The notes beneath the pieces are model-generated. The model made no database searches. It saw only the letters and a list, made by a program, of their open reading frames with translations, and was not told the DNA's origin. A stretch of DNA of 26,827 bases from a virus. The first letter of the stretch is position 1. Each line of letters begins with the position of its first letter. This document shows, in pieces, positions 1 to 22,824 of this stretch. Location of the stretch: positions 1 to 26,827 of the IMG/VR virus record IMGVR_UViG_3300002460_000144. One strand, 5' to 3'. The position numbers were made by a program, and so were the translations under genes.

Positions 1-297
1 AATAGAATATACATCAACATATTGTCCGGGACAAAGGATTGCAGTCCCTTCAACTCTTAATGGATTATTTAACCAGTATAATCCGGGGTCAGTTGTGATC
101 TTCCACTGCTGGCAGTAAAGTTTATGATCGGCTAGATAAGCACAATAAAGAGTATCATTAAATTCATTGATAGTATCACTGCTTGATCTTATCCCGATGA
201 TGTTCAGCTTATAGTCTTGAAAATAGAACTCATAACCCAACTTCATCATTCTTTCTTTCAGAATGGTATATAAAGAGATTACTCCTTCATTTAACAT
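1..297 (-). CDS. Probable endolysin-type protein, N-terminal 99 residues (cut by window edge)
   Basis: The frame stays open from the ATG at 297 to the window edge, so the C-terminal part is missing. The ATG overlaps the stop of the upstream gene by one base (TAATG), implying coupling. The visible part has the phrases NIIGIRSS, TTDPGLYWL and VEGTAILCPGQY. I remember these from a family of Bacteroidota phage proteins whose unseen C-terminal half carries a His ... SAGC signature like that of YkuD-type peptidoglycan-active enzymes. That recall was not checked by search, and the catalytic half lies outside the window. Position at the end of the lysis module next to a spanin-like pair supports a cell-wall role. 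No signal peptide is visible. Confidence 0.6.
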   Translation of the reverse strand, partial: MLNEGVISLYTILKERMMKLGYEFYFQDYKLNIIGIRSSSDTINEFNDTLYCAYLADHKLYCQQWKITTDPGLYWLNNPLRVEGTAILCPGQYVDVYSI

Positions 298-689
298 TAC
301 AATTGTCCCGCTAAATAAATTGAGCCCGCAGTGCCGATCACTCCGATTGCTATTCCAAACCAAACCGATTTATACCAAACATTCTCCTGATAGTATGCTT
401 TCTTCCAGAATATTATTTCATTAATCTTCATATTCATTAAATCATCGCTTGCACCCTTGATCATTTCCACATCCATCTGGTAAAGAAGATAGTTACTCTG
501 CAGATCCACGTAAGCACGGCGGAGCTGCCCAAGTTCGATGAGCAGATCTATTGCATCCGGTAAAGCTTTATTAACTTCACCTTGTAAGGGGTGAAGGTTC
601 TGACTGTAGCTTTCGGACGTAGTAAAGAAACAAACTATCAGCAAGCTCAGGATGAAGATTGAGCAGGCTGTCTTTCCTTTGTTGTTCAT
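297..689 (-). CDS. Secreted/anchored lysis-module protein, possible outer spanin partner
   Basis: 130 residues starting at the ATG at 689; a longer reading from 872 would only translate the neighbour's other frame. An N-terminal signal peptide (about 1-29) ends in SYS followed by Gln. A helical middle section follows and a C-terminal hydrophobic span (roughly residues 107-128) ends at the stop. The first 113 bases lie inside the 3' end of the gene at 577-912 in another frame, the layout of Rz/Rz1 spanin pairs. A true outer spanin would be a lipoprotein; here the Cys context is poor and a C-terminal membrane span is present, so the spanin assignment is inference from layout only. Confidence 0.6.
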   Translation of the reverse strand: MNNKGKTACSIFILSLLIVCFFTTSESYSQNLHPLQGEVNKALPDAIDLLIELGQLRRAYVDLQSNYLLYQMDVEMIKGASDDLMNMKINEIIFWKKAYYQENVWYKSVWFGIAIGVIGTAGSIYLAGQL

Positions 690-912
690 ATTTGTAAACC
701 GTTGAATAATAATTATTAATTGTTTTAATGCTGTCAAGCTCTTTGAGATGCTCAAACATAGCGTCAAGCTTTTCAAGTGCAAGCTCGCTTTTATCTGCCA
801 ATGCTTTGCCCTCCAGTTTGGTAAGAGTATCCTGCTCATTGCAGAATGCAAGATAAAGCACCATCCCGACAAACAGGATGAATAAGATCAGATGCAGCTT
901 GTCAAACTTCAT
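577..912 (-). CDS. Inner-membrane spanin-like protein (Rz-type)
   Basis: 111 residues from the ATG at 912 (MKFDKLH...), preferred over the ATG at 945 because the longer form only adds a charged stretch overlapping the upstream gene. One N-terminal membrane span (about residues 6-22) is followed by roughly 85 charged, helix-prone residues, with a C-terminal stretch LHPELADSLFLYYV. This topology (single anchor plus periplasmic coiled coil) matches inner spanins that join the two membranes at lysis. It overlaps the upstream holin-like gene by 11 bases and the next gene by 113 bases. No family motif can be proved by eye. Confidence 0.6.
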   Translation of the reverse strand: MKFDKLHLILFILFVGMVLYLAFCNEQDTLTKLEGKALADKSELALEKLDAMFEHLKELDSIKTINNYYSTVYKYEQQRKDSLLNLHPELADSLFLYYVRKLQSEPSPLTR

Positions 913-1144
913 TCTGCTTTTCTTCTTTCTTTTTAGAGAATACATTTCTTAAACCACCCGCATCAGAAATGTTTTCTATTGCCATAGCACCGCCTAAAAC
1001 AGAAGTGCCAATCATTAACCAGAAAATAATACTTTGAAAATCATTACCACTTAGTATGACTCCCCACTTGATTGCAAGCGCAGTTAATAAAGGAACAATT
1101 ATCTCAAAGATTATTGTTACGATGAATTTCCTTTTACCTTTCAT
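902..1144 (-). CDS. Small two-span membrane protein, holin candidate
   Basis: 80 residues. A basic N terminus (KGKRK) precedes two hydrophobic segments (about residues 8-30 and 38-57) and a charged C-terminal tail (KKKEEKQ). Length, two spans and a polar tail fit class II/III holins, and it sits directly upstream of the spanin-like gene. A clear Shine-Dalgarno, AGGAG, lies about seven bases before the ATG in a leader nearly identical to that of the gene at 1162-1359. Several other small membrane proteins are nearby, so which one is the holin is undecided. Confidence 0.55.
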   Translation of the reverse strand: MKGKRKFIVTIIFEIIVPLLTALAIKWGVILSGNDFQSIIFWLMIGTSVLGGAMAIENISDAGGLRNVFSKKKEEKQNEV

Positions 1145-1161
1145 TTTATTCTCCTGTTATT

Positions 1162-1359
1162 TTAGTTGGTTAAATAATGCTCAGTTTTGCCAAATCTCCA
1201 CTTAAAATATTTTCTAAATTGTTTCCTATTGCCCAAAATGTATTTGATATAATTCCAAAGAAAATATCTTATCTCTAATCTGCCTTCGTTATACCAACAT
1301 ACACCCTTCCATCCATCATTGTTTATAAATCCAAATTCTAACCAAAGTTCATTTTTCAT
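1162..1359 (-). CDS. Small hypothetical protein rich in aromatic and basic residues
   Basis: 65 residues, unusually rich in Trp, Phe, Tyr, Lys and Arg (for example WLEFGFINN, KYFKWRFGK), with no membrane span and no signal peptide. It has a strong Shine-Dalgarno (AGGAGAATAAA then ATG) and compact spacing to both neighbours, which supports translation. I do not recognise a family. The composition suggests a small folded nucleic-acid or membrane-surface binding protein, but that is a guess. Confidence 0.5.
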   Translation of the reverse strand: MKNELWLEFGFINNDGWKGVCWYNEGRLEIRYFLWNYIKYILGNRKQFRKYFKWRFGKTEHYLTN

Positions 1360-1368
1360 TTTATTCTC

Positions 1369-1599
1369 CTATCTATAATTTGATGGATTACTTATCCACT
1401 GTTTAATATACCAGATGTCATCATCTTTTAATTCTCTTATTTGCTGTTTCAATGATTCTATCTTTGTCTCTTTAATCTGTAAATCATTTTTAATATCGTG
1501 CTGAGCAAAATAAACCCCGACAATAAAGCTGGCGATCGCTATCACCAATCCGAAAGCTGTAAATGATTTACCTAAATTTTCTTTTATCCAGTCTTTCAT
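1369..1599 (-). CDS. Small membrane protein with C-terminal coiled coil
   Basis: 76 residues: a short amphipathic start (MKDWIKENLGKS), one hydrophobic span (about 13-32), then a charged coiled-coil stretch with Lys/Glu heptad character (about 36-60) and a Trp-containing tail. The ATG overlaps the stop of the upstream 55-residue gene as ATGA. Topology resembles XhlA/haemolysin-type lysis helpers or inner spanins, so it is a second candidate for the lysis machinery. No family can be asserted. Confidence 0.55.
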   Translation of the reverse strand: MKDWIKENLGKSFTAFGLVIAIASFIVGVYFAQHDIKNDLQIKETKIESLKQQIRELKDDDIWYIKQWISNPSNYR

Positions 1600-1763
1600 T
1601 TACTTTTCATTAGTCCTCTTATTAATGCGCCAAGTAATGTATTAAACATCCCAAGAATAACTCCATCTTTACCACCTATAACAAGAAATGTTAAAAGAAA
1701 CATTGCGATGATTATCATTATATCAATAGGCTCAAATTTTTCAGTTATATTTTTCCAACTCAT
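1596..1763 (-). CDS. 55-residue membrane peptide, holin candidate
   Basis: An ATG at 1763 opens a 55-codon frame ending in TGA at 1596-1598. The product begins MSWKNITEKFEPID, then a hydrophobic span (about residues 15-30), GGKDG, and a second weakly hydrophobic/amphipathic segment, and ends LMKSK. The start lies 23 bases inside the upstream gene and the stop overlaps the next ATG (ATGA), so it closes an otherwise empty gap in a tightly coupled chain. Size and topology fit a phage holin or lysis accessory peptide. The product is inferred from topology alone. Confidence 0.6.
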   Translation of the reverse strand: MSWKNITEKFEPIDIMIIIAMFLLTFLVIGGKDGVILGMFNTLLGALIRGLMKSK

Positions 1764-2019
1764 CTATTTTACCTTCCAGCTTTCTGATATAAATTGCAAT
1801 TAAGAAAAAAGTTATTCCGATAACCACAAAAAGAATCGAAGTATTAAGAGCCATCCCAACATCAGTTGACCATTTGTAATAATTCTCTCTATGTGCTATA
1901 TATCCTGCTAAAGAATAACTGCCAACAGACAGAACACATAACCCCATAAATTGGATAAGCTGAAATATCAATAAATTATGCCCTATGAACTTTATTATTT
2001 CTATAAGTATTTTTCTCAT
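1741..2019 (-). CDS. Two- or three-span small membrane protein of the lysis region
   Basis: 92 residues. Two long hydrophobic segments are clear (about 15-40 and 57-79), separated by a polar loop (HRENYYKWSTD), with a charged C-terminal tail (KLEGKIDELEKYN). It is the third of several consecutive small membrane proteins. The tail with a charged helix after the last span is like many holins. The 3' end overlaps the next gene by 23 bases. Confidence 0.5.
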   Translation of the reverse strand: MRKILIEIIKFIGHNLLIFQLIQFMGLCVLSVGSYSLAGYIAHRENYYKWSTDVGMALNTSILFVVIGITFFLIAIYIRKLEGKIDELEKYN

Positions 2020-2027
2020 TTCTACCT

Positions 2028-2450
2028 CTATTCGTTTTTCTTTTCTAACAGTTTACCAAATACAGGGATTAAGTAATACCACAATGGTTTAACCTTCAAA
2101 ATAACGTGCATAAACATATTGCGAATCCAAAACATATACGCCCAAAAAAGTATTGGCAGTATCAATAAAAAATACCATTCTAATTTCAATGCAAAGTATA
2201 AAACAAAAGTTAGTGCTATTGCCATCATAGCATACAGAGCACCTTCTGATATATGAGCAGAATCATAAATGCTTTTACTTTTATCATTTTGGTCTGTGAA
2301 CCAATACCATTTCTTTTTATAATCAGCCCATTGCCAGGAAGTCCAAGCCCTTTCATCTCTCGTCTGCTCACATAATACCTGCACTTCCATATATCCTCCG
2401 ATAGAAGCAAACAGGGTTGCAATTACTATCACTAAAATTATTTCAATCAT
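2028..2450 (-). CDS. Membrane protein of unknown function
   Basis: 140 residues. Hydrophobic stretches at the N terminus (about 2-20) and two adjacent ones near 71-108 flank a polar region rich in Trp and Lys (TSWQWADYKKKWYWF). It starts at the ATG at 2450, eight bases inside the end of the secreted gene upstream. It is well spaced into the same co-directional chain. I do not recognise a family; being multi-span and next to lysis candidates, it may be a lysis or superinfection-related membrane protein. Confidence 0.5.
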   Translation of the reverse strand: MIEIILVIVIATLFASIGGYMEVQVLCEQTRDERAWTSWQWADYKKKWYWFTDQNDKSKSIYDSAHISEGALYAMMAIALTFVLYFALKLEWYFLLILPILFWAYMFWIRNMFMHVILKVKPLWYYLIPVFGKLLEKKNE

Positions 2451-2751
2451 TAATTGGCTCTACAAGTTTTTGATATTTCCTTTTTACAAACTCTCTGAAT
2501 CCTGCAAAGTCTGGTTCTTTATGAACGTATGTATAGTGAGATGAATCTTCGCAGGCTAATTCATTATAATATCCATCTTCCTGATTCCCCTTCTGGGTGA
2601 CACAACTTCTGTCATACCATTTAATAATATGTGTGTGCTGCAACGAACTATCATTAAAACATTCCTGTTCATACTCAATAATTAAATCGTAAGTATTATA
2701 CTGTGCGAATACTATCGAGTAAAGGAACAGAAAGATTATTATTGTTTTCAT
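2443..2751 (-). CDS. Small secreted protein
   Basis: 102 residues with a short, strongly hydrophobic signal peptide (residues 1-16, MKTIIIFLFLYSIVFA) and a predicted cleavage that leaves Gln at +1. The mature part is about 86 residues, rich in Tyr, Asp, Glu and His, and contains three Cys. The ATG follows AAAGGA almost directly, so the ribosome site is atypically close. It is the last of six consecutive signal-peptide genes. No family recognised. Confidence 0.55.
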   Translation of the reverse strand: MKTIIIFLFLYSIVFAQYNTYDLIIEYEQECFNDSSLQHTHIIKWYDRSCVTQKGNQEDGYYNELACEDSSHYTYVHKEPDFAGFREFVKRKYQKLVEPIND

Positions 2752-2759
2752 TCCTTTAC

Positions 2760-4622
2760 CTATTCAACTATTATAATTCTTGTTTTAATCGCAAGTGTCG
2801 CTTTCGTTGTTACTACAAAATTTTGTGATTGTCCACCAGCTAATATTGTCTCGGTATAAGCAGTTGAATAACTCCCGCCAGTTGTATTTTTAACAAACAC
2901 AGTATCGGTCTGGTCAGCAGTTTTTTGTGCAGTAGAATATGTGCCAGCATAGTTAATCTTGAAAGAAGCCGATGTTGTAGTCCATACGCTAAAAGTTGAA
3001 TCTGCATTATCAAAAGCAGAAGAAGCGATATATTCCGTACTCAACTCTGCATTATTAATCGCAGTAAAACTAAATGAAGGAATTGTATCTGCTATGCCTT
3101 GCTGATATTCCAACGCACCTAAATCCCAACTTCCGGTTCTCGGATTGCCAAGTATATCATAAGCTATATCAGGGAATAGTTCTAATAAATGAGGATATTC
3201 TTCCGCTATGTTAGCCCCTAAATCCCTCCCCGTTTCAGTATAATAATCTGTAATATTACTACCATACTTTTGCACAAAAGAAACGTCAGTTGAATTACCT
3301 GTTAATGAATTAGCATCATACAAATCACCACCAAATAAACTTGAATCCCGCCATTGTGCATAAGTATATGTCCCAAATCCCTCACCTATATAAAATGGAT
3401 TAGAGAGTCCGCCATTTTCAAAATACCCGTTATTATCTACTTCTCTGAAATATGTATAATCAAAAAAATACTGGAATCTTAACCATAAAGGGACTGTTGA
3501 ATCTGCAACTATTATATTATTCTTAAAAATTAAAGTATCTAAAATACTTCCTTCTATCCCTATCGGTATTGTAGTATTTAATCCATCATCAGCAAAAAGA
3601 AAAGTGTTATTAAATACATACCACTTTTGATGATAAACATAAGGAGAGTCCGGGAACTGGTAGGCAAACACCGGGTTCATATCAGAAAGATCATTGCGGG
3701 CAACGATAAGGTTATTGTATATATAATAATTGATTGAACTGAATGCCCCCGAAGTGTATAGAATTGCATTCCATCCTATACCCGAAGAGGTTGCAATCAA
3801 CACATTGTTTCTTATTATTAAGTAAGATGTCTCTAAAGAATCTTTGTTAGCAAATCCACTTATTTGTATAAAGTCAATATGTTGGGGTGTTTCAACCGCG
3901 ACGTTTTCAATAATAAAATAGTTATCTTCAATAGTATGAAAACCCCTGCCATCGGATATACCAATGGGGTCTAAAGACGTGGCTCTATCTTTACCAATAT
4001 GAGTATAAGTGCAACCTCTGATAGTGCCCCTCGTTCCTGCAAGATAGAACCCCCCTGTCAAACCTGCGTTATGTATTACGCAATTTTCGATTGTATTATC
4101 ATTGCCATATATATATATCAATCCATTATCAACAGTAGTAGAATCTGACCTTGTGTCGTAAAATGTAACCCCTGTTATCTTTACATTATTAATCCCCATA
4201 AGAACAAATAAGTTATATGTATCATCATTCTTTGTAATAACATAAACATCGCCGTCGTGCCCTGACTGCCAGGCAGGAGCTATTACTACTTCTTCATTGA
4301 AGGTAGGAATAAATTCTCCTTCACTTGCTTCCCTTCTAATACCATTATAAAGATTATTAGATAAAGGGTAGTAACAAGTTGAATCAGCACCGCCCGAAAC
4401 ATAAATAGTATCACCATCACCAATTATAGCCCAATTTACACCTTGATTACCAAGCCAAACAGATGAATCCAGAGTATTCCACGCATCAGTCCAGCTTCTA
4501 CCTGTATTAGCACCAGTTGCATCTCTATCTACATACCAAACATTCTGTGCGTTAAGAGTTATTGCTAATAATATGAATATGAGCCATAGGCTCATCAGCC
4601 TTTGGTTGAAAAGATATTTCAT
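2760..4622 (-). CDS. Secreted right-handed beta-helix protein, adhesin or depolymerase candidate
   Basis: 620 residues. A signal peptide (about 1-25) ends LNA before Gln. The body (about 90-470) shows repeated short strands with Asn/Ile ladders (NNTIENCVIHNAG, YLIIRNNVLIAT, LIFKNNIIVADS), the signature of a parallel beta-helix such as pectate-lyase-like and phage depolymerase folds. A DLGALEYQQG phrase near 500 is typical of the end of such helices in Bacteroidota secreted proteins, followed by a Thr/Ser-rich 110-residue C-terminal domain. The ATG abuts the stop of the LamG gene with no clear Shine-Dalgarno, implying coupling. Part of the signal peptide is encoded by a dispersed double-hairpin repeat (4581-4611). 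Enzyme activity cannot be read from the sequence. Confidence 0.65.
   Translation of the reverse strand: MKYLFNQRLMSLWLIFILLAITLNAQNVWYVDRDATGANTGRSWTDAWNTLDSSVWLGNQGVNWAIIGDGDTIYVSGGADSTCYYPLSNNLYNGIRREASEGEFIPTFNEEVVIAPAWQSGHDGDVYVITKNDDTYNLFVLMGINNVKITGVTFYDTRSDSTTVDNGLIYIYGNDNTIENCVIHNAGLTGGFYLAGTRGTIRGCTYTHIGKDRATSLDPIGISDGRGFHTIEDNYFIIENVAVETPQHIDFIQISGFANKDSLETSYLIIRNNVLIATSSGIGWNAILYTSGAFSSINYYIYNNLIVARNDLSDMNPVFAYQFPDSPYVYHQKWYVFNNTFLFADDGLNTTIPIGIEGSILDTLIFKNNIIVADSTVPLWLRFQYFFDYTYFREVDNNGYFENGGLSNPFYIGEGFGTYTYAQWRDSSLFGGDLYDANSLTGNSTDVSFVQKYGSNITDYYTETGRDLGANIAEEYPHLLELFPDIAYDILGNPRTGSWDLGALEYQQGIADTIPSFSFTAINNAELSTEYIASSAFDNADSTFSVWTTTSASFKINYAGTYSTAQKTADQTDTVFVKNTTGGSYSTAYTETILAGGQSQNFVVTTKATLAIKTRIIIVE
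4581..4611. repeat. Diverged double-hairpin repeat inside a signal-peptide coding region
   Basis: gagcc ata ggctc is followed by a second imperfect hairpin with a ttt loop (tcagcc ttt ggttga). Base by base it matches the double hairpins at 8935-8964 and 22781-22810 apart from a few substitutions. It encodes residues NQRLMSLWL of the signal peptide of the beta-helix protein. Confidence 0.65.
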
Positions 4623-5411
4623 TTAGTAAGTAGTCCCGATTAAAACTTGGTCTGCTGTTGTTACGTTTGTCCCTGTTAAATCATTCCCGCTTGCTGAATG
4701 GTCATTTAGCATTTCTGCATCGGTAGCCCCACTCCATTTATACCAAGCTACTACTGTTCCGCCTAAGTATGAAGCGTTTAGAGTTCCACCTGTATTATAT
4801 AAAGCAGTTATTTCATCTGCTGTTAAAGCATACCCGCTTACAATTTGAACTTGTCCTATTAAACCGGGATAATACCAACCTTGAGAATAACCATCTTGCC
4901 CGATTGTTAATTTAGAATCGCCAGAACTTGTATTGCCTTGATTTAAGGTTGTATAAGCCGCATTATTATCTCTATATATATTGTAATCAGATACGCCTCC
5001 TGTCAAATCAGAACAAGTTATGACAACTAACATCCACGTATCCGCCTCTGTTTCTACCACCCCACTACCCACACTACCTCCCGTTCCATTATCATAAACA
5101 AATGTCCAAACCTCAATAGAAGTTAATACAAGTACCCACCCCCTTGTGGGGTTAGCATCAGTTGAAATTATTGTTCTTTGACCTCCATCTATCGTGCTTG
5201 GCGTTTTCACCCAAGCTATGATTGAAAATGTCTTGGCAGACAGATCAACATCCGTAGGTGATGTTTTTGTTGCGTATTCATTTGAACCGTTCAGGTCAAC
5301 AGCGTAAACATCTTCTGCGACAACTTCATCATCAAAGAGTAATCCAAATTTACTCTGTGCTTGAAGTGTAAAAGATAAAAGTAAAAAACCTATTGCTAAA
5401 TATTTTTTCAT
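4623..5411 (-). CDS. Secreted LamG/concanavalin-like lectin domain protein
   Basis: 262 residues from the ATG at 5411, chosen over 5423 because GGAGAG sits just upstream and the ATG overlaps the tail-spike stop (TAATG). A signal peptide (about 1-19, ending TLQA) leaves Gln at +1. The mature protein has the LamG/Laminin_G_3 pattern: AVDLNGSNEYA, then FSIIAWVKTP, WVLVLTS, DTWMLVVITC, YNIYRDN, GLIGQVQIVSGYALTADEITALYNTG. This jelly-roll usually binds sugars, so it likely helps the particle or cell surface bind glycans. It lies between two beta-helix proteins in the adhesion module. Confidence 0.75.
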   Translation of the reverse strand: MKKYLAIGFLLLSFTLQAQSKFGLLFDDEVVAEDVYAVDLNGSNEYATKTSPTDVDLSAKTFSIIAWVKTPSTIDGGQRTIISTDANPTRGWVLVLTSIEVWTFVYDNGTGGSVGSGVVETEADTWMLVVITCSDLTGGVSDYNIYRDNNAAYTTLNQGNTSSGDSKLTIGQDGYSQGWYYPGLIGQVQIVSGYALTADEITALYNTGGTLNASYLGGTVVAWYKWSGATDAEMLNDHSASGNDLTGTNVTTADQVLIGTTY

Positions 5412-8371
5412 TATTCTCTCCAATAAATTTTGTATCTTAAATAAGTTAAGTCATCACCTATATAAGTGAAGTAAAAATAAACTTCATTACCCGCAGGGAT
5501 TGTGGCATCGTTAAAAGTTGTGATTGTATTCCAACCAGAAACATTTGTATAGGCATTAAAACAAGTTGTGCCTAATCCCAAAGCTCCGAATGTACCAACC
5601 ACCGTTATGGAATCATCAGTCCTGACTTGAATTGAATCTATTGTTATCGCACTGTGTGTATAAAAATTACTTATAGTATCAGCAGTTGTGGGGTTTAATA
5701 TCTGGTCTGGTCTTTGTGGTGCGTGAATATAAACGGGTGCTTGTAAAGCCCCACCAGTTTTTTGCCATATTCTAAAATCATCTATATAATAACTCACGTC
5801 GTTATCTTCATTTCTTATTCCTACTTGGTCGTATGCCGAACCAGATGATGTGAACGTACCACTATAAGTGCCAGCGGTAGTTACGTTGATATTATATCCC
5901 CCACTTCCTATAATTATGGTATCATTGGCGGAACAAGAATCTATTCTAAAAGAATATCCATAAGCAACATTACTGTCCATTACACCAGTTTGTGATATAC
6001 TCCAAGCGTGTGTATTACCGTCAGTCACAAAATGTAATGTGCCCGTTGGGCTTTCTTCTACATAATTCCCTGCATCTTCCAAAGAGACATTCCAGTTATC
6101 AGGGTTGTCCCCAGTCCAATCCGTGAAGTTACCGTTAAGAAGAAGATTTTCTCCTATGGCGACACTCAAAATGCCTGAATTTGGGTTAGCATAAATATCA
6201 TTGGCATTTAATCCAATGCTATTAAATTGCACTCCAGAATAATTTAACAGTCCTAATCTCGTTATATCATAGTTATCCATATCAATGTTAGTCGCAACAG
6301 CACCAATGAACGAAGGAGTGTAAATTCTTTTTACCGTTAAGTTTTCTACTGGTGTTGTCGAAGTAATTGAAAACGGTGCAGTCCCAGTGGTTAGAACAGA
6401 AAACAATCTCCCCGCATTTACGTACAGAAGATTATCCTGTCCCAACCATACCGAATTAGAACCACTTGCCTTTAACCGCAAATTACCACTTGATGCACTT
6501 ACATACCCCTCATTGCCTAAAATTAAATTTGTCAAAGTGTTAGGATAGTATTGTATAGACAAAGGCATGTAAGCCGTACCCGAATCATTAAAGGTAGTGT
6601 TAAAATAATAAGGACTTGATGAACCCAATATCCCATATTGCCAATATCTATATGTATCTGTGTTATAAAACCTTAAAGGATAATTGTTATAATAGTAATT
6701 CCCATTATAGAATGATGTTACGCCTGTGAATTTTGTTGGGCTGTTGGCATCGCCAGTTATAGCCGTATTCTTATTTAGAGATGAAACATCTTCACTAATC
6801 GCAGTAGCAATCCCCTGATAACCATATTGAATTAAATTATAAGTTGAGTTGGTTTCAAATCTGTAATAAGCATAAACATCGGCGTCATCATAAAGATTAT
6901 TCCCTATAAATGAGTTATTATTTGCATAAGTCCCTTTAACAAAATAATCATATCCGACCATCTCTACTAAGTTGCCAGCGATGTAATTACCTACATCCGC
7001 ATTAGAAGAACCACCTACAATTTCGATAGCACCAACCGAATCAATATTGCTTCCACAGGTAAGCCACCAAGTATTATTCACGATTTGAATACCATTGGCA
7101 TATCTTCTTAAATAAAGCCCTCTCCTGATTCTATAAAAATAATTCTCTGAGAAAATAGAACCATACCCCTGGAATGGAGAATTACCATTTGCAAAAGCCG
7201 TAGTATGAGTGCCTCCACAAACAATAGCATCGTTTGAAGCATTACTTGTCGCACCCGAACCAAAGAAAGTTGTGTTACGAATATATGAAGTAGTCGCAGT
7301 GGTCTTAAAAAAACTCTTATTAGCAACCTGTGTATAAAAAGTAAGATTTTCTATTGCTAATGTTCCAAGCCCCATAGTTAGAATGAAGACACTATCACCC
7401 CCATCATAAGTAAACTCTACAATAGTCCCCCCTAATGGTTCGGTAGTTGTCCCAGCCGTTTTTGTAAAATTACCAGAACCGCTTATTATTATCGGAACAT
7501 TTGTATAATACCCGCTTGAAGTATCAGAATTATGCGGTATAAGCCATTGAGAACCATCTATGTAATGTTTATCTGACAATCTTAACTCACCACCACCTAT
7601 TGAATATAAATAAGCAAAAGCTAAATCAAATGCCGTTGAATCATCTGTCGAACCATTACCAACCGCACCAAACATTTCTGGTATAACTATATAAGAAGTC
7701 TTAGTGTAGAGAGAATCAAAGTTTGCGTTTACGGTTGTGGTGTCGTCTGTAATATTTAATATGGTTCTGGTCTGGTCAACTGTTTTTCTATACCAAACAT
7801 TATCTGAGTCTTGTCCGACTATAAAAGTATTAGTTGCATTGGGTGTATCTAAAGCAACTGTGTAATAAGGTGTTGCTGTCGGTACCCCATCCGTTGGAGT
7901 CTGCCCATTCAGCATCAAATTAAAATTGCCGGATGTAACCCAGACCGTATCAGGTCCGTAAGCATAAATTGAATAGTAATATTTTGCCGCATTAAAGCTT
8001 GCAGTTTCATCCACATAAAGCGTGCAGGTTAATGTTGTGTAAGGTGCGCTGTAACTTACAGTAGTTGGTTTTTGTATTAACCTGTTACAAGTATTGGATG
8101 TGCAGGGCTTAACTACAAAGTAAAGACTATCATAAGCAGAATAATCACCGGCTGCTTTCCACGTTAAAGTTGTTGTGGATCCCCGTTCGACGAATACGTG
8201 GTTGTCGACTTGCGCGGCGGTTGTAGCAACAAATAAAAAACATACAACCATACAGACATACTTCCATACGCCCATACAACCATACAACCATATCCGCGAT
8301 TGTATGAATGTATGAATGTATGACCTGCCTACCGGACAGGCAAGTTGAATGATTGTATGAAAAGCTTTCAT
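5411..8371 (-). CDS. Tail-spike protein with beta-helix domain and an N-terminal signal peptide
   Basis: 986 residues. After a long, odd signal peptide (cleavage near residue 54, TTAA before Gln) comes a beta-sandwich of about 100 residues (TLTWKAAGDYSAYDSLYFVV ... AKYYYSIYAYG) resembling the N-terminal module of baseplate upper proteins. Around residue 235 it has FGAVGNGSTDDSTAFDLAF, the classic phage tail-spike/pectate lyase 3 motif, then beta-helix repeats to about 500. The C terminus has a jelly-roll-like part and a final module ending YLRYKIYWRE. It probably binds or cleaves host surface polysaccharide. The ATG overlaps the upstream stop (TGATG), with AGGAG about ten bases before it. The signal peptide is built largely from an 8-bp tandem repeat. 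Confidence 0.75.
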   Translation of the reverse strand: MKAFHTIIQLACPVGRSYIHTFIQSRIWLYGCMGVWKYVCMVVCFLFVATTAAQVDNHVFVERGSTTTLTWKAAGDYSAYDSLYFVVKPCTSNTCNRLIQKPTTVSYSAPYTTLTCTLYVDETASFNAAKYYYSIYAYGPDTVWVTSGNFNLMLNGQTPTDGVPTATPYYTVALDTPNATNTFIVGQDSDNVWYRKTVDQTRTILNITDDTTTVNANFDSLYTKTSYIVIPEMFGAVGNGSTDDSTAFDLAFAYLYSIGGGELRLSDKHYIDGSQWLIPHNSDTSSGYYTNVPIIISGSGNFTKTAGTTTEPLGGTIVEFTYDGGDSVFILTMGLGTLAIENLTFYTQVANKSFFKTTATTSYIRNTTFFGSGATSNASNDAIVCGGTHTTAFANGNSPFQGYGSIFSENYFYRIRRGLYLRRYANGIQIVNNTWWLTCGSNIDSVGAIEIVGGSSNADVGNYIAGNLVEMVGYDYFVKGTYANNNSFIGNNLYDDADVYAYYRFETNSTYNLIQYGYQGIATAISEDVSSLNKNTAITGDANSPTKFTGVTSFYNGNYYYNNYPLRFYNTDTYRYWQYGILGSSSPYYFNTTFNDSGTAYMPLSIQYYPNTLTNLILGNEGYVSASSGNLRLKASGSNSVWLGQDNLLYVNAGRLFSVLTTGTAPFSITSTTPVENLTVKRIYTPSFIGAVATNIDMDNYDITRLGLLNYSGVQFNSIGLNANDIYANPNSGILSVAIGENLLLNGNFTDWTGDNPDNWNVSLEDAGNYVEESPTGTLHFVTDGNTHAWSISQTGVMDSNVAYGYSFRIDSCSANDTIIIGSGGYNINVTTAGTYSGTFTSSGSAYDQVGIRNEDNDVSYYIDDFRIWQKTGGALQAPVYIHAPQRPDQILNPTTADTISNFYTHSAITIDSIQVRTDDSITVVGTFGALGLGTTCFNAYTNVSGWNTITTFNDATIPAGNEVYFYFTYIGDDLTYLRYKIYWRE
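8241..8344. repeat. Octamer tandem repeat plus palindrome, copy A, coding
   Basis: Degenerate tandem copies of an 8-bp unit (acaaccat on the plus strand), then gtatgaat copies, then an imperfect palindrome gcctaccggacaggc. It encodes most of residues 10-45 of the tail-spike signal peptide. Nearly the same array occurs at 8807-8894. Confidence 0.8.
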
Positions 8372-8907
8372 CAGAACCCACTCCTGATCAACGGAATCAA
8401 CTTCCGGTCTGCTGCTTCAGTTTCCCAGGCATCGCCGCTGGTGTAACATCCAAACCTTATGTATCTTTTAAGCGCATAAATCAATTGCGGTTTTAAGATA
8501 TTTATCCCCGCAACTTCCGGTGTGAATGTGTAAAGATCACCTTCGTAATGCACAGGCTTCCAATCGTAAGGCGTTCCGCCGGATGTATCTGCAGCCGAGT
8601 TATATGTTGCAGAAGTTTGTATGAAAAACTTTGCGGCTGTAAATGCAGCGGTTGTATCAAAATCCACCCCAACAAGTATTCTACCGTTAAGATCGTAACC
8701 TGCGGTTGTATCACCATCTTCATAATAGTATGTTGTGGAGTCGCCCGAAAGGATTACAAGCGTGTCGCGGTCGGTGGTGAATTGTGCAAGCGCAGGCAAT
8801 GCAAAGCATACAACCATACAACCATACAACCATACGCGGTTGAATGAATGTATGAATGTATGACCTGCCTGCCGGACAGGCAAGATGTATGAATGTTGTT
8901 TTTTCAT
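8371..8907 (-). CDS. Small secreted protein of the tail-fibre module
   Basis: 178 residues. The start at 8907 has AAAGG seven bases upstream, so the unusual N terminus is truly part of the reading frame. The first 41 residues form an extended signal peptide: LPVRQAG from a palindromic repeat, VWLYGCMVVC from an octamer repeat, then FALPALA before Gln. The mature part (137 residues) is Asp/Thr/Tyr-rich, predicted beta, with FDTTAAFTAAKFFIQTS echoing the FNAAKYYYSIY stretch in the N-terminal domain of the tail spike, suggesting a related baseplate or fibre adaptor module. Function not proved. Confidence 0.6.
   Translation of the reverse strand: MKKQHSYILPVRQAGHTFIHSFNRVWLYGCMVVCFALPALAQFTTDRDTLVILSGDSTTYYYEDGDTTAGYDLNGRILVGVDFDTTAAFTAAKFFIQTSATYNSAADTSGGTPYDWKPVHYEGDLYTFTPEVAGINILKPQLIYALKRYIRFGCYTSGDAWETEAADRKLIPLIRSGF
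8807..8894. repeat. Octamer tandem repeat plus palindrome, copy B, coding
   Basis: Three clean copies of the 8-bp unit catacaac, a short linker, gtatgaat copies, and the palindrome gcctgccggacaggc (8867-8881). It encodes most of the n- and h-regions of the signal peptide of the gene at 8371-8907. It is a second copy of the array at 8241-8344. Confidence 0.8.
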
Positions 8908-8934
8908 TTTGTTACCTTTATGTTGTTAATTTTT

Positions 8935-8964
8935 TCAGCCATAGGCTGATCCGCCTCAGGCGGA
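8935..8964. repeat. Double-hairpin dispersed repeat, intergenic
   Basis: tcagcc ata ggctga is followed at once by tccgcc tca ggcgga. It sits in the 71-base gap between the tail-fibre gene and the next gene. An almost identical copy is at 22781-22810. In the transcript neither hairpin is followed by a U run, so it is not a clear terminator on the coding strand. Confidence 0.85.
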
Positions 8965-8978
8965 AATTTTTAATTGCT

Positions 8979-9911
8979 TTAATTATTACTTCTCGAAACT
9001 TCTACCCAAGCCAATGCGGGCTCCTCTGCAATACACATCAAGGTTATTATATCATTGTACCCCATCGTAAAATTGCCTGCTAAATATAAATTGTCATCAC
9101 CGCTAACATAATCTTTTAACAAAATCGTATAAGGAACTGTCGCATTTCTTAAAACAATTATTTGCCCGTTAGTAAATGCCGTACCCGTTATCCTGCTGAT
9201 ACCATCCGTTAAGTTGCCAGGTAAAATAAACGCTGCTATTGGGACTTGTCCCACCGGGAAAGTTATTATCGTATCTGCGACCGTTATAGGAGAGTACGCA
9301 TCAACACCCAACACGAAAGTATTAAAGACCGTGCCTGAATCCATAGTAAAGGATTCGCTAATATTTATATTTGGCACTGAAACATTTTTACTAAAAGTTA
9401 TAGTAGAATCATTATACTTTATAGAAGCCGAATCATTACCGGCGTCATTTATTATCGTAAATGTATTTGCATAAATATTAAAAAACGGCGCTGTGTTCCT
9501 GCCGATAATGGATGATGCTTGTGTTCTTTGTATTCCGTGTGTCCACATTTGTGTGGTGCAAACAACACTATCACCGTTAAAGAAAACTTTCCCGTGGCTT
9601 CCTGCATTAAAAGTTGCACCGTCAAAATTATTTATTCCGTTCCAACTGTTAGAAGCATTAAGCAAGGTTGTAATGCGGGCTTCGGTTGTGTCTCTTGCTT
9701 GTAACCAAAAATTAGAGAAAATCATTTTTCGCCAGGCATATTTGTTAGCCACCTTTGTTTGAAATCCGATTATATCATTTGCCCCGAATGTAGTTTTGCT
9801 CGTAAAATTAGCGGTGGAATCATAAGTAACCTGTGCATTTATATTTTCGGGCATTAAGCTGTAAGCAACAAGCATTAAGCCAAACAAAATTATTCTATTT
9901 AAAATCTTCAT
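8979..9911 (-). CDS. Tail-fibre-like protein with signal peptide
   Basis: 310 residues. A signal peptide of about 26 residues (MKILNRIILFGLMLVAYSL ... NINA) leaves Gln at +1. The mature sequence is Asn/Thr/Ser-rich and beta-prone, with LLNASNSWNGINNFDGATF like the repeating strands of trimeric fibres. The C terminus (GNFTMGYNDIITLMCI ... AWVEVSRSNN) has the look of the closing module of Bacteroidota phage tail fibres. The ATG has a good Shine-Dalgarno (AAGAGG). It follows the tail-tip genes directly, as fibres do, but the export signal is unusual for a virion protein. Confidence 0.65.
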   Translation of the reverse strand: MKILNRIILFGLMLVAYSLMPENINAQVTYDSTANFTSKTTFGANDIIGFQTKVANKYAWRKMIFSNFWLQARDTTEARITTLLNASNSWNGINNFDGATFNAGSHGKVFFNGDSVVCTTQMWTHGIQRTQASSIIGRNTAPFFNIYANTFTIINDAGNDSASIKYNDSTITFSKNVSVPNINISESFTMDSGTVFNTFVLGVDAYSPITVADTIITFPVGQVPIAAFILPGNLTDGISRITGTAFTNGQIIVLRNATVPYTILLKDYVSGDDNLYLAGNFTMGYNDIITLMCIAEEPALAWVEVSRSNN

Positions 9912-9959: not shown

Positions 9960-10481
9960 TTAATCCGTTTGTGCCGTTTGATCCGTATCTGTTTCAACTA
10001 CCTGGTCCGAATCCATTTGAACTATTCCTTCGCCCGATGTAACCTGCAGACTCCCGAGGTTAACCGGCTTCTTGCTTTTGAATATTATTCTGAAAGTATC
10101 ATAAGCCCAGGGTGTTTCCAGCGGGAAGAGTTCCGTTATCTGCATCCTGAATTTTACATAGCCACCATCTTTATCTACAAAATAATCTGCATTCTGACTC
10201 GGTGATAAAGCAGTAACTTCCGTTTTGTTATAACTTGAATAAAAATTTTTAAACCACGTTAAAGAGTTGGTTAAGTTTTTATGCAGCCTGCACAAAACAG
10301 TAACGGTGATATGATCGTAGTCTGCTTTGTTGGTCCAGCTGCGTGTTGTGTTGATAATACTTTCGTGCTCAATATCCCTGCTTTCAAGCTCGATAGATTC
10401 AATAAAAGATTTTTCAATGCTGATTTCATCCTCATCAACTACAAATTTTGGAACTCCCGTGCCGAATAAATAACTTTCCAT
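9960..10481 (-). CDS. Tail-tip or baseplate protein, unknown family
   Basis: 173 residues, no signal peptide or membrane span, starting at an ATG that overlaps the upstream stop by one base (TAATG). Predicted beta-rich core (DYDHITVTVLCRLHKN, GGYVKFRMQITELFPLETPW, YDTFRIIFKSKK) with an acidic, Gln/Asp/Thr-rich C-terminal tail (MDSDQVVETDTDQTAQTD). Position directly after the hub-like gene and before the fibres suggests a small tail-tip subunit. It is the last cytoplasmic-type protein before the signal-peptide block begins. Confidence 0.6.
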   Translation of the reverse strand: MESYLFGTGVPKFVVDEDEISIEKSFIESIELESRDIEHESIINTTRSWTNKADYDHITVTVLCRLHKNLTNSLTWFKNFYSSYNKTEVTALSPSQNADYFVDKDGGYVKFRMQITELFPLETPWAYDTFRIIFKSKKPVNLGSLQVTSGEGIVQMDSDQVVETDTDQTAQTD

Positions 10482-11644
10482 TACAGCTCCTGCACTATTT
10501 CTACAGTGAGGCCGTCAATATCCATCGAAACCTCTTTAACTCTTACCGGCACCTGCTGTGTGGTTATATCCCTGGTGCCGTTAAATGAACCAATTTTTGC
10601 CTGCGCATCATTATAAACAAACGCCAGGTTCGAATAATTATTTACCGGCCACAAGCCCAGCCCGAATGTGTTGCCTGCGGCTTCCCAATATTTTTCATAC
10701 ATAATTATAAAAGATGCCGGCCAGTCAATTAAGTTTTTACCCAGGCCGGTAGAATATTTGTGACTTGCAAGAGATGATCCTGTAATCTGCGCGTAAGCAC
10801 TCCTCGCCGCGAATTCTGCATCAAAAGAATATCCTTCAATATCATTTTCCACATCATAAGTTTCTTTATTGAATGTCAGATCGTCAGTTATGGGGAAGCT
10901 CAGATTATTCCTTACAGAAACAATAAGCTGTTCCGGCACACCGGTCTGGCTCCAGCTTATATCGAAGCCCATATTGTTGGTCGGGATTGTTCCAATTTTA
11001 TTGCAGAACCATTGAAAGAAATCCCAGAAGGTAGGCGTTAAAAGTATTTTTGCAGGGTCTGCTATTATATTTGTTCTGTTACAGGCAACTGATTGGTTAA
11101 TACAGTAAAACATATTTTCATCAACACGCAGATGCTCAAGATTCATAACCCTGTCCACTCCGCCGAATGATATTGTCTGGATATAAGTAGTGCCCGGGGG
11201 AAGAGAAACGTTAATACCTAACTGGTTAAATATCTTTTCTATAATCCACAGAATTTGGACGGAAGGAAGCCCTTCATTGTCTGAAGCCCTATACTGCTGC
11301 GGAGTTGCACCGGAAGCAAGGATGCCCGATAGTTCTGTAATCAGGCGGTCTTTCATAACTGAAAGCGAAGAAATTATTTTTAAGTTCCAGGCTCTGTTTT
11401 GATAATCATATCTTCTTTCAAAAATTTTTCCTTTGTAAAAAGGATAAAATGATGATGCAGCAAAAGCAATTTTAATTTGATTTCCTTTGGCAATAAGCGC
11501 GGTTGGTATCTTGCCGGAAACAGCCATATCAATTTCGCCTAATATCGGAGTCCTGTCGCGGTTGCGATAAATTATCGGAACATCGCTGCTTCCTATAACG
11601 TATTCACTTATATCTGTTGCACCGATTTTAACTATCAGACTCAT
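10481..11644 (-). CDS. Tail-tip/baseplate hub-like protein
   Basis: 387 residues. The start overlaps the tape-measure stop (ATGA), the usual place of the distal tail or hub protein. The beginning MSLIVKIGATDISEYVIGSS and IKIAFAASSFYPFYKGKIFERRYD look like the split-barrel/Ig-like start of baseplate hub proteins that describe a path then a plug domain. The rest alternates beta strands and loops, with no visible enzyme motif. Assignment rests mainly on position and size, so the exact class (hub, distal tail, tail-associated) is undecided. Confidence 0.6.
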   Translation of the reverse strand: MSLIVKIGATDISEYVIGSSDVPIIYRNRDRTPILGEIDMAVSGKIPTALIAKGNQIKIAFAASSFYPFYKGKIFERRYDYQNRAWNLKIISSLSVMKDRLITELSGILASGATPQQYRASDNEGLPSVQILWIIEKIFNQLGINVSLPPGTTYIQTISFGGVDRVMNLEHLRVDENMFYCINQSVACNRTNIIADPAKILLTPTFWDFFQWFCNKIGTIPTNNMGFDISWSQTGVPEQLIVSVRNNLSFPITDDLTFNKETYDVENDIEGYSFDAEFAARSAYAQITGSSLASHKYSTGLGKNLIDWPASFIIMYEKYWEAAGNTFGLGLWPVNNYSNLAFVYNDAQAKIGSFNGTRDITTQQVPVRVKEVSMDIDGLTVEIVQEL

Positions 11645-13371
11645 CTAAAATCCCCAACGTTTTTGCCCGACCTGGTCATATTATTTATTTCTTTTTGGAT
11701 TACGGCTGCAATCACTTTGCCGTCTAAAGAAACCTGCACAACTCCTCCTCCGCCCTTACTCTTCCTGCTTACGTGGAGATTGGTTGTAAGTATTGCATTC
11801 CTTATCTGGTCGAGCTTATTTTCCATACGGGAAGTCTGCCCGGCGTTATAAACATCCAGCGTTTCATTTTTATGAACCATAACCGGGTAGCCGCCGCCAT
11901 AAGCAGGGGTAGTGTAGCTGCCGCCCATAGCAAAAGATGGAATCTTTGTATGTGAAATATTCCCGCCCAGGTTGGTAATCCTTCCGCCCTTTTCCAGACC
12001 GATAAGCGAAAGTAATCCGCCGATTCCAAAACCACCGCCTCCGCCAAACATTGAAGCAATAACTAAAATCATATTTGATATTGAATCAACCATTGCAATT
12101 GCCTGCGAAAGCTGCCCAACAAACGTATGTCCTGCAAAAGAAAAATTGCTCGCCATTTGGTTTGATAATGAAACAAGCGCGTTCATTGGGCTTACGGCGT
12201 TTTCGATCTCCTTATCCAATTCCTCCCAACGTTTTTCGCGAGTTGATTTTCTGCCGGTCGGGGCCTGCGTTAATTTTTTATTTAACCAATCTTCGGCACT
12301 CTGATAATCAGGGAGTATCTCCATTTCCTCATCCATATCGCGCATACGTTCATAGATATCGCTCATTATGTCATATTGCTCTTTTAACAATTCAATTTCT
12401 TTTTCTTTTTTAAGAGTCAAAGAATCTTGTATTTTTGCTTCTTCTTTTTTCAAATCTATGTATTGAGCCTCTGTAAGATTTCCACCTTCTATGGTTTCTT
12501 TTATTTCCTGAAGCCGGTCCTGCTGCTGCTTAAGCCAGGGAACGGTAGCCGCCACTAAAGAAGTGTAGGTTTTCATTGCTTCTGGTTTTTCCGGTTCTTC
12601 ACCAGGAAGCGGCATCCACATTCCGGTTTCAAAATACTGCCTCAATAGCTTACCCGAATCAACTAAGCTTTTCATAGAAAAATTAAGAGCTGTAAAAAAG
12701 CCAAGCCAGACGGGTGCCAATTTTTCGCCAATTTCTTCCTGCTGATCATTAATTTCATTGTTTAATCTTTCCATTTGCCCCGTTAAAGTTTTACCCTGGG
12801 CTTCTGCCTGCCCCATATAAATTGTCAACGCTTTAAGAAGACTATTATATCTTTCAGTGGAACCAGCTGCCCCCTCGACTTTAATTCCGTAACGTGCCAA
12901 AGCATTTGTAGATGAGGCGAAGGTTTTTGTAACAAGATCGGCTGCACTGGAAAGATCGACTCCCTTTGCAGTTGCAAAGTCCTGAGTAACTCTTATCAAT
13001 CCCTTTATTTTGTCTTCCTCTTTTGTAAAGGCAGCAATCAAACTCATTGCTTCAATGGTTGCATCATCGCTAAAGGTCGTTATTTTTTGCAAATCTTTTG
13101 CATAGTTCTGAAGTGATCTTGAGTTTTTACCGAGTGCGGTGTCCAGCTTTTTAATAGCAACTTCACTTTCCTTAAAAGCATCAATTGAGCTTCTCATAAA
13201 ACTTAAAACCTGTTGCGCAGAAAAAGCAGCAACCAAAGCCACACCAATTCTATTCATAGCTTTTTCCATCCTGCCGGATGATTTTAATACCCTACCCTCA
13301 ACCTGGTCAATCTTTTTTAATGCGGCTTCGTTACGCGCATCTAATTCAATTATATAAACTTTTTTAGGCAA
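11641..13371 (-). CDS. Tail tape measure protein
   Basis: 576 residues. It begins with a helical, charged section (LDARNEAALKKIDQVEGRVL), has a hydrophobic segment (about 41-60), the tape-measure-type phrase AADLVTKTFASSTNALARYGIK followed by QMERLNNEINDQQEEIGEKLAPV, long coiled coils (about 270-370), and a Gly-rich hydrophobic stretch (about 430-470). All are typical of TP901/lambda-type tape measures, which set tail length and deliver DNA. At about 1.5 angstrom per residue this predicts a short tail near 85 nm. The start is TTG at 13371, separated from its likely Shine-Dalgarno by a hairpin. Confidence 0.85.
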   Translation of the reverse strand: MPKKVYIIELDARNEAALKKIDQVEGRVLKSSGRMEKAMNRIGVALVAAFSAQQVLSFMRSSIDAFKESEVAIKKLDTALGKNSRSLQNYAKDLQKITTFSDDATIEAMSLIAAFTKEEDKIKGLIRVTQDFATAKGVDLSSAADLVTKTFASSTNALARYGIKVEGAAGSTERYNSLLKALTIYMGQAEAQGKTLTGQMERLNNEINDQQEEIGEKLAPVWLGFFTALNFSMKSLVDSGKLLRQYFETGMWMPLPGEEPEKPEAMKTYTSLVAATVPWLKQQQDRLQEIKETIEGGNLTEAQYIDLKKEEAKIQDSLTLKKEKEIELLKEQYDIMSDIYERMRDMDEEMEILPDYQSAEDWLNKKLTQAPTGRKSTREKRWEELDKEIENAVSPMNALVSLSNQMASNFSFAGHTFVGQLSQAIAMVDSISNMILVIASMFGGGGGFGIGGLLSLIGLEKGGRITNLGGNISHTKIPSFAMGGSYTTPAYGGGYPVMVHKNETLDVYNAGQTSRMENKLDQIRNAILTTNLHVSRKSKGGGGVVQVSLDGKVIAAVIQKEINNMTRSGKNVGDFR

Positions 13372-14348: not shown

Positions 14349-14861
14349 CTATGCACTTGAATCGGTTAATGTAAGACCGCCGTTCACTGTAAAATTGTAT
14401 GTGGTTATTACAACGCTGTCGCCTTCGACATCAACACTTTTTCCTTTTGATGTGAGGATGATGCTTCCGCTGTAGTAAACTTCATCTGTGCTTGTATCAT
14501 CCATACCAAGATGCGCTTCATACTCATTCCCAACAACCAGATCAACATCGCCATACCTGGTTATGTGATCGAATGAACCGGTTACGGTTATCGCTTTGCC
14601 TGCAACGTGCGGAACTGCTATGCCGCTATCACCGGAATCTTTTGCCGGAATTGCAGAACCCTGTTCGCTGAAACTCCAGTTCTTAATTCTGAAAGCAGTT
14701 GCACTTGCATAAGCTACATTGCCCTGTTTCAGATGCCCGTTTTTGCCGGAGATAACACCCGTAAGTGTGCAATACATTTCGGCACGACTCCATACAAGAG
14801 CAAGTGCGATCTGCAAAGATCTCCAGATGATTTTTAACGATTTGAATATTTTATAAATCAT
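14349..14861 (-). CDS. Tail tube protein, paralogue 2
   Basis: 170 residues. Core pattern ISGKNGHLKQGN ... RIKNWSFSEQGSAIPAKDSGD ... GSFDHITRYGDVDL ... YYSGSIILTSKGKSVDVEGDSVVITTYNFTVNGGLTLTD is the TP901/HK97-like tail-tube fold. It is clearly a duplicate of the gene at 14882-15373: many motifs are identical. Both have an extra N-terminal segment of about 25-30 residues before the first core strand; the GAGG before the ATG supports this long start. Forms the tail tube with, or in alternation to, its paralogue. Confidence 0.75.
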   Translation of the reverse strand: MIYKIFKSLKIIWRSLQIALALVWSRAEMYCTLTGVISGKNGHLKQGNVAYASATAFRIKNWSFSEQGSAIPAKDSGDSGIAVPHVAGKAITVTGSFDHITRYGDVDLVVGNEYEAHLGMDDTSTDEVYYSGSIILTSKGKSVDVEGDSVVITTYNFTVNGGLTLTDSSA

Positions 14862-14881: not shown

Positions 14882-15373
14882 CTATACTTGTGAATTATCG
14901 GTCAGTGTAAGCTCACCATTAACTGTAAAGCTGAAAGATGTCATTACAACACTATCACCTTCAACATCAACAGACTTTCCTTTCGATGTAATGAATATTG
15001 TGCCTGTGTAATACATTTCATCGCCGCTTGTATCATCCAGAATGAAAAGAACCACGTAAGATGTATGCAGTGCAAGCTCGGTTGCCTGTGCGCCGTATCT
15101 TACAATCTGGTCAAATGAGCCGGTTGTGGTTTTAGCTTTGCCGGGAACGTGAGGAACATAATCATCTGCATCACCCGAATCTTTGCAGGGTATTGCAGAA
15201 CCCTGCTCCGAGAATGACCAGTTTTTAATTCTTACCTCGGTCCCGCCCAAAGCTGTTAATTGTATTGTCCCGTTTTTGCCGGATACTACTCCTGCCAGAG
15301 TGCAATAAATTTCAATGCGACTCCATAATAGAGCGAATGTAATTCTTAAGTGTTTAATAATTTTTCTTATCAT
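14882..15373 (-). CDS. Tail tube protein, paralogue 1
   Basis: 163 residues with core SGKNGTIQL ... RIKNWSFSEQGSAIPCKDSGD ... TTGSFDQIVRYG ... YYTGTIFITSKGKSVDVEGDSVVMTSFSFTVNGELTLTD, the same fold as the paralogue at 14349-14861. It begins with a basic, partly hydrophobic extension (MIRKIIKHLRITFALLWSRIE). A strong AAGGAG before the ATG shows that the extension is translated. The 5' flank holds an 8-bp tandem repeat. Confidence 0.75.
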   Translation of the reverse strand: MIRKIIKHLRITFALLWSRIEIYCTLAGVVSGKNGTIQLTALGGTEVRIKNWSFSEQGSAIPCKDSGDADDYVPHVPGKAKTTTGSFDQIVRYGAQATELALHTSYVVLFILDDTSGDEMYYTGTIFITSKGKSVDVEGDSVVMTSFSFTVNGELTLTDNSQV

Positions 15374-15414
15374 TTTAATACTCCTTCCATACGTTCATAC
15401 ATCCATACAAGCGC

Positions 15415-15454
15415 GTATGATTGTATGATTGTATGATTGTATGATTGTATGATT
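15415..15454. repeat. Five tandem copies of gtatgatt, intergenic
   Basis: Five exact copies of the 8-bp unit gtatgatt with degenerate gtatg/catac copies extending on the left to about 15388. It fills the 107-base gap between the tail-terminator and tail-tube genes. It is the same repeat class as the coding arrays at 8241-8344 and 8807-8894. Confidence 0.9.
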
Positions 15455-15480
15455 GTATGATTGTTATTTTTATAATAATT

Positions 15481-15945: not shown

Positions 15946-16608
15946 TTACATAGCCAGCTTAAATTGTGATCTGAATTGTTCTAATCTTTTACAAGCTGCT
16001 TCATAGTAATCTTTGTCAATCTCAAAACCCACATAATCAAAACCCATATCTTCACAGGCGATTAAAGATGATGCACTGCCAACGTGTGTATCTAATATTT
16101 TATCATTTGGTTTTGCGTATTTGGTTAGAAGCCATTTGTAAAGGGCAATTGGTTTTTGAGTTGGATGGATATTAACAAACGGTCTATCAGTATCTAAAGA
16201 TTTGGGAGCGAAACCGCTTTCACTTCCCCTTCCATAATCAAATATTCTCAAAGCAATGTCAAAAGAAGTCCAAGCCAATTCACCATCTGAAAAAGAAAAT
16301 CCACGCTGAATTTTATTCCAGACAACCCATCCCTTATGAATAGGTAAACCAAAATAATTTCCACCCCACACAATTTGATTTTTACTTACCCTGCTTAACT
16401 CATTAAAATATTCCTGAGTTGGTATTTGTTTATCCCAATCTTTATCAAGATGTTTTTTATATCCATTAGCCTCGCAGCTTATCCCTCTTTTATATAACTC
16501 TTGGCTCATGTCCAATCCATACGGCGGGTCAACAATAGCAAGGTCGAAGTATTTATCAGAATACCTTTTCATTCCTTCCATACAATCTATGTTTTCAAAT
16601 AATCTCAA
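15946..16608 (-). CDS. DNA methyltransferase, beta class, orphan
   Basis: 220 residues. DLAIVDPPYGL has the catalytic DPPY (residues 27-30), followed by a target-recognition section, then IHPTQKP (about 148-153) and the AdoMet-binding motif LDTHVGSASSLIA (about 172-184) and YVGFEID. Catalytic motif before AdoMet motif is the order of the beta class, which methylates adenine N6 or cytosine N4. No restriction enzyme is adjacent, so it likely protects phage DNA. Starts at TTG 16608, inside a dispersed repeat; a TAA lies just upstream in frame. It sits between head and tail genes, an atypical place. Confidence 0.85.
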   Translation of the reverse strand: MRLFENIDCMEGMKRYSDKYFDLAIVDPPYGLDMSQELYKRGISCEANGYKKHLDKDWDKQIPTQEYFNELSRVSKNQIVWGGNYFGLPIHKGWVVWNKIQRGFSFSDGELAWTSFDIALRIFDYGRGSESGFAPKSLDTDRPFVNIHPTQKPIALYKWLLTKYAKPNDKILDTHVGSASSLIACEDMGFDYVGFEIDKDYYEAACKRLEQFRSQFKLAM

Positions 16609-22746: not shown

Positions 22747-22810
22747 TCCGGCAATTGCCGGAGAAGCCGGATTAATTTTTTCAGCCATAGGCTGATCCGC
22801 CTTTGGCGGA
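22747..22810. repeat. Three consecutive hairpin repeats between genes
   Basis: tccggcaattgccgga (22747-22762), then tcagcc ata ggctga (22781-22795), then tccgcc ttt ggcgga (22796-22810). The last two form the same double hairpin as at 8935-8964. They lie between the 112-residue gene (stop near 22825) and the next start at 22723. Confidence 0.85.
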
Positions 22811-22824
22811 AATTATAAATTAGT

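Follow-up and report, generated by a model that had tools for sequence, protein, structure and literature searches.

In tailed phages, assembly of the tail fibres is taken to be a cytoplasmic process, and the exported product known from the tail-fibre region of lambda, Lom, is a single outer-membrane protein, not a fibre. Here we describe a block of six consecutive open reading frames (ORFs), A to F, in the fibre region of a 26.8-kb virus fragment (IMG/VR record IMGVR_UViG_3300002460_000144; the whole stretch is called the window below), all predicted to encode proteins with Sec signal peptides. In T4, the Spackle protein gp61.3 is likewise a periplasm-exported tailed-phage protein with proven cleavage, and it binds a tail component, the lysozyme domain of gp5, but it is an inhibitor of this lysozyme rather than a fibre and is encoded by a single gene (PMC7650644). 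The closest published statement concerns Porphyromonas gingivalis prophages (“Nixviridae”), in which five genes without a known function encode products that, as in the window, have signal peptides followed by glutamine; unlike the block, they are regarded as potential modifiers of the host outer membrane and are not called a fibre module or virion proteins (PMC10367356). The North Sea flavophage paper defining Assiduviridae, Pachyviridae and Duneviridae does not mention signal peptides (PMC8776804).

Signal peptides were called with a home-made rule set (n-region charge, h-region hydrophobicity and the –3/–1 rule; not SignalP). In the block (2443-9911) a Sec/signal-peptidase-I type signal peptide is identified at the N-terminus of six ORFs out of six, as claimed in a preliminary description of this DNA, and glutamine occupies position +1 in all of them, the “Bacteroidetes Q-rule”. 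Hence every block protein combines a positive n-region, a hydrophobic core, a conforming –3/–1 pair and Q at +1. The genes, with protein lengths in amino acids (aa), are:

A, 8979..9911, minus strand: 310-aa fibre-like protein, the first gene past the tail tip; signal peptide MKILNRIILFGLMLVAYSLMPENINA followed by Q, cut between INA and QVT.
B, 8371..8907, minus strand: 178-aa protein with a mature part of ~137 aa; long repeat-derived signal peptide, cut between ALA and QFT.
C, 5411..8371, minus strand: 986-aa spike-like protein; long repeat-derived signal peptide, cut between TAA and QVD.
D, 4623..5411 (the ORF also opens at TTG 5423), minus strand: 262-aa LamG-like protein; signal peptide MKKYLAIGFLLLSFTLQA followed by Q, cut between LQA and QSK.
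E, 2760..4622, minus strand: 620-aa beta-helix-like protein, cut between LNA and QNV.
F, 2443..2751, minus strand: 102-aa protein, not recognisably a fibre; signal peptide MKTIIIFLFLYSIVFA followed by Q, cut between VFA and QYN.

Judged from the sequence, six consecutive signal peptides are far beyond chance. In the whole window 8 of the 28 ORFs pass the scan, all eight with Q at +1; the two outside the block are 21000-21503 and a spanin-like ORF near 297-683. In the same scan neither the tail genes 9960-10481 and 10481-11644 nor the genes for tape measure, major head protein, portal and terminase reach the level of the block, and the boundary between the tail tip and the block is sharp. Among signal-peptidase-I substrates of Bacteroidetes Q at +1 averages 71%, reaching 77% in Ignavibacterium album (PMC5837995); eight of eight fits such a host and suggests that the window virus infects a Bacteroidota-type bacterium. 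Two scans of genome contigs yielded no relative that could name the host.

The preliminary description proposed to look for signal peptides in the same slot of related phages, and two relatives, IMGVR_UViG_3300031949_000719 (L005; portal 95% identical to that of the window) and IMGVR_UViG_3300009285_007418 (L012), retain them, contrary to the refuting case named there, homologues devoid of signal peptides. The order in L005 is A, B, C, an extra SGNH-like protein, a LamG-like protein and E, every one with a signal peptide. In L012 the tail module is a different one, and behind it come a homologue of A, then B, C and D, four further signal-peptide proteins and a muramidase (N-acetylmuramidase, E=1.6e-57), with which the neighbourhood of the block ends. 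One call was made by eye: L012 B (LKA followed by Q, with Lys at –2) is rejected by the rule-based caller and was counted as having a signal peptide. By reading, Q is at +1 in 17 of the 20 fibre-slot proteins of the three phages.

The leaders themselves are not conserved. The DNA of mature B is 92-93% identical among the window, L005 and L012, versus 46-54% for the signal-peptide DNA, where the random level is 48%; for C the respective nucleotide identities are 87-89% and 31-68%. With mature parts conserved and most of the leader DNA at random identity, one and the same protein has been given different signal peptides. E presents the reverse case, as 82% of its signal-peptide DNA is common to the window and L012, the bodies being unrelated, and the E homologue of L005 bears a different signal peptide. 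That the signal is kept although its sequence is replaced is firm, and these comparisons indicate that selection acts on signal-peptide function as such and not on the sequence, which is both replaced and exchanged.

Interspersed repeats make up part of the signal-peptide coding DNA of B, C and E, are also present between genes, and seem to supply or reshuffle the signal peptides. The leaders of B and C share a 65-nt repeat (window 8292-8356 and 8832-8896), and an element in the E leader resembles two intergenic copies (4571-4620, 8926-8975 and 22772-22821). A tandem 8-nt repeat GTATGATT, of the same family as the B/C leader repeats, is also present at 15407-15470, between two tail genes. The 167-aa product of 21000-21503, with Q at +1, is encoded next to the portal gene, well away from the fibre block, and has in its leader ILSGVEGQ, resembling a translated repeat element.

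Comparable runs occur in cultured Cellulophaga phages, whose fibre slots contain 3-5 consecutive signal-peptide proteins, nearly all with Q at +1, directly past signal-less tail proteins. Phages with such runs are:

Assiduviridae: phi10:1, phi19:1 and Nekkels.
Pachyviridae: phi18:3, phi46:3, phi19:3 and phi13:2.
Duneviridae: Ingeline.

As in the window, these are consecutive Q-rule proteins with beta-helix or pectate-lyase-like members; unlike in the window, several of them are annotated from virion tandem mass spectrometry (MS/MS), and the records do not remark on the export signals. Eleven signal-peptide proteins (phi10:1 gp091-094, phi19:1 gp101-104 and phi18:3 gp085-087) carry the GenBank note ‘annotation based on experimental MS/MS proteomics analysis’, the virion evidence being taken from GenBank annotations alone, and the adjoining signal-less tail proteins are MS/MS-annotated as well. 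The underlying virion proteomics paper is reportedly that of Holmfeldt et al. 2013. This is record-level evidence for the Cellulophaga proteins, and by likeness it suggests that the window proteins may also be present in virions. In six aligned Cellulophaga tail fibres the signal peptide and ~38 mature residues are near-invariant, and the remainder has just 33-37% identity with the first fibre of the alignment; residues 1 to 42 are also found at the start of pectate-lyase and tail proteins that are otherwise unrelated. By sequence, then, these fibres have the usual conserved virion-docking end and variable receptor end, with the docking end placed directly behind the export signal. The preliminary description knew of no phage with a fully Sec-exported fibre module. 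Such phages do stand in GenBank; what holds of that statement is that no paper remarking on the feature was found in the open-licence literature searched. The same literature, with most subscription journals outside its scope, yielded no report of exported virion fibres, and novelty is provisional.

As a control, we considered eleven other Bacteroidota phages (B40-8, P2559S, 11b, 6H, RAP44, immuto, Panino, phi18:1, phi38:1, P12002L and P12024L). Out of their 411 ORFs of at least 100 aa, 17 pass a looser threshold, mostly small membrane or lysis-type proteins, and just one combines a signal peptide with Q at +1. Fibre genes examined singly in seven of these phages have no signal peptide. Canonical Caudoviricetes fibres and spikes, e.g., those of Flavobacterium phage 11b, B40-8 and immuto, occupy the same slot, past the tape measure and tail tip and before the lysis genes, but differ from the block in lacking signal peptides; the block thus departs from a usual, if not strictly defining, fibre trait, that of being made without a signal peptide and assembled in the cytoplasm. 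The portal of 11b is 50% identical to that of phi10:1, yet the fibre genes examined in 11b have no signal peptides, and so the exported block looks like a module open to exchange and not like a lineage trait.

The product labels of the preliminary description held in part. D matches Laminin_G_3 (E=6.6e-13), the match of E to Beta_helix (E=3e-05) is under the curated cut-off, and the sixth ORF, F, has neither a family over the cut-off nor a fibre-like domain. Family searches of the Pfam, PHROG and NCBIfam type gave no convincing match for A, B, C and F, and A, B and C had no hit beyond noise among PDB sequences. A tblastn search of 50,697 phages found no match to mature B, to the N-terminal domain of C or to the tail protein 10481-11644. 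A-type proteins have a short fibre-like motif at the N-terminus; homologues of A with signal peptides of their own are encoded at L005 10531-11451 and, more distantly, at L012 8790-9863 (hhalign 90.9% over 154 columns of the mature part). The mature part of B holds no ATG-encoded Met, which makes a cytoplasmic start further downstream unlikely. In C an N-terminal domain of ~120 aa is conserved in the three phages and the remainder is variable, the arrangement expected of a fibre module and found in the Cellulophaga fibres too. C was also considered as a BppU-type baseplate protein; this was rejected, as there is no Pfam, PHROG or PDB sequence match and the model has a predicted local distance difference test score (pLDDT) of 43. 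For D the ATG at 5411 is a more probable start codon than the TTG at 5423, and its homologue with a signal peptide is found at L012 12720-13514.

The exported block begins directly past the tail-tip genes and stops at the lysis genes, both in the window and in L012, as expected of a fibre module. Its surroundings in the window, where the tail genes are on the minus strand, are:

23349-25457: terminase.
19351-20964: portal.
17349-19349: major head protein, 666 aa, with a protease-like part.
11641..13371, minus strand: tape-measure-like protein (TMP_2 E=0.003, phrog_28 E=0.028).
9960-10481 and 10481-11644, minus strand: two tail-tip genes without signal peptides, the upstream boundary of the block, with counterparts in L005.
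9911 down to 2443, minus strand: the six-ORF fibre block A-F, after the tape measure and tail tip.
297..2450, minus strand: small membrane proteins and probable lysis genes (from ORF reading), the downstream boundary of the block.
902-1144, minus strand: holin-like ORF within the probable lysis genes.

Among the latter, 577-945 (with an N-terminal membrane helix) and the out-of-frame ORF at ~297-683 form a spanin-like overlapping pair; the signal peptide of the second ends in SYS followed by Q, and it has a C-terminal hydrophobic segment, so that it would be an unusual outer spanin partner, if one. The tail region also contains adjacent paralogous tail proteins that are 61% identical (14349-14861 and 14882-15373, both present in L005) and a DNA methyltransferase-like ORF with the motif DPPYG (15946-16608).

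We consider it fairly probable that the block is a virion adhesion module, whose proteins leave the cytoplasm, are cleaved, fold outside it and are added to the tails at lysis. The preliminary description had offered this as one of two options, and it has become the better one through the Cellulophaga modules in three families with their 11 MS/MS-annotated proteins. The head and tail would be built in the cytoplasm, and the receptor-binding/depolymerase module would be made as Sec precursors, which host signal peptidase I would cut ahead of glutamine; host glutaminyl cyclase would then convert the exposed Q to pyroglutamate. The mature fibres would fold and wait in the periplasm, where we place them because no type IX secretion system (T9SS) C-terminal sorting domain is matched in the block by Pfam or NCBIfam. 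Type IX secretion of the block proteins was considered and dropped for the same lack of a sorting domain. At lysis the holin would open the inner membrane, and cytoplasmic tails would meet the fibres to give complete infectious particles. Export, cleavage, periplasmic waiting and docking at lysis are steps that we infer. The chances appear about even that several lineages of Bacteroidota tailed phages use such two-compartment assembly, with signal peptides freely exchanged between fibre genes.

Several points weigh against assembly from exported fibres. For the window proteins export, cleavage and location in the particle are deduced from sequence, with signal-peptide calls that come from our own rules. 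No sequence homology was found between the Cellulophaga and window proteins, which have only architecture and gene position in common. The MS/MS notes are silent on signal-peptide removal, and exported proteins could co-purify with particles. Structure predictions (pLDDT 43 for the C N-terminal domain and 35 for B) are too poor for fold identification. Finally, most of the other Bacteroidota phages examined lack the feature, and therefore the host envelope does not demand it.

It seems unlikely that the proteins are exported without joining the virion, acting like morons such as lambda Lom, as adhesins or depolymerases at the surface of infected cells or lysogens or in the surrounding medium, e.g., as decoys, in superinfection exclusion or in capsule removal at release. 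In favour of this, the signal peptides are real, the LamG, beta-helix and SGNH-like domains would suit exported enzymes or adhesins, and T4 Spackle provides a proven exported phage protein (PMC7650644). However, virion MS/MS underlies the annotation of eleven comparable Cellulophaga proteins, no signal-less fibre gene remains in the window that could provide a receptor-binding protein, A-type proteins have the fibre-like N-terminal motif, and neither a T9SS nor a lipoprotein anchor that could hold the block proteins at the surface was found. Adhesins on the lysogen surface, the other option offered earlier, are weakened by the same Cellulophaga evidence, and no integrase or repressor was identified in the 26.8-kb fragment.

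We give a low probability to the possibility that the hydrophobic N-termini are not used for export, being instead docking or membrane-contact elements or being trimmed away by a protease of the phage, as has been proposed for P. gingivalis phage capsid proteins (PMC10367356), so that the fibres stay cytoplasmic. Cytoplasmic assembly is the norm for tailed-phage fibres and is compatible with virion MS/MS too, but a docking element should keep its sequence, whereas B and C replace it, keeping charge, hydrophobic core, the –3/–1 positions and Q at +1. Moreover, Q at +1 is a feature of Bacteroidetes signal peptidase I with no docking role (PMC5837995), and the near-invariant stretch of the Cellulophaga tail fibres extends beyond the cut site. 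An artefact of wrong start codons, or of chance hydrophobic leaders from repeats or AT-rich DNA, is very improbable: although the B, C and E leaders overlap interspersed repeats and the predictor is not SignalP, in relatives without those repeats this position is occupied by different signal peptides of equal quality, the control rate of a signal peptide with Q is one in 411 ORFs, and B has no downstream ATG start.

These observations suggest that in some tailed phages the fibres first leave the cytoplasm and only later join the particle. If so, particle completion would be a post-lysis step and the fibres would mature under periplasmic conditions, and co-infecting phages might share periplasmic fibres. 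Exported fibre genes are easily misannotated as host adhesins or morons, and export would explain why.

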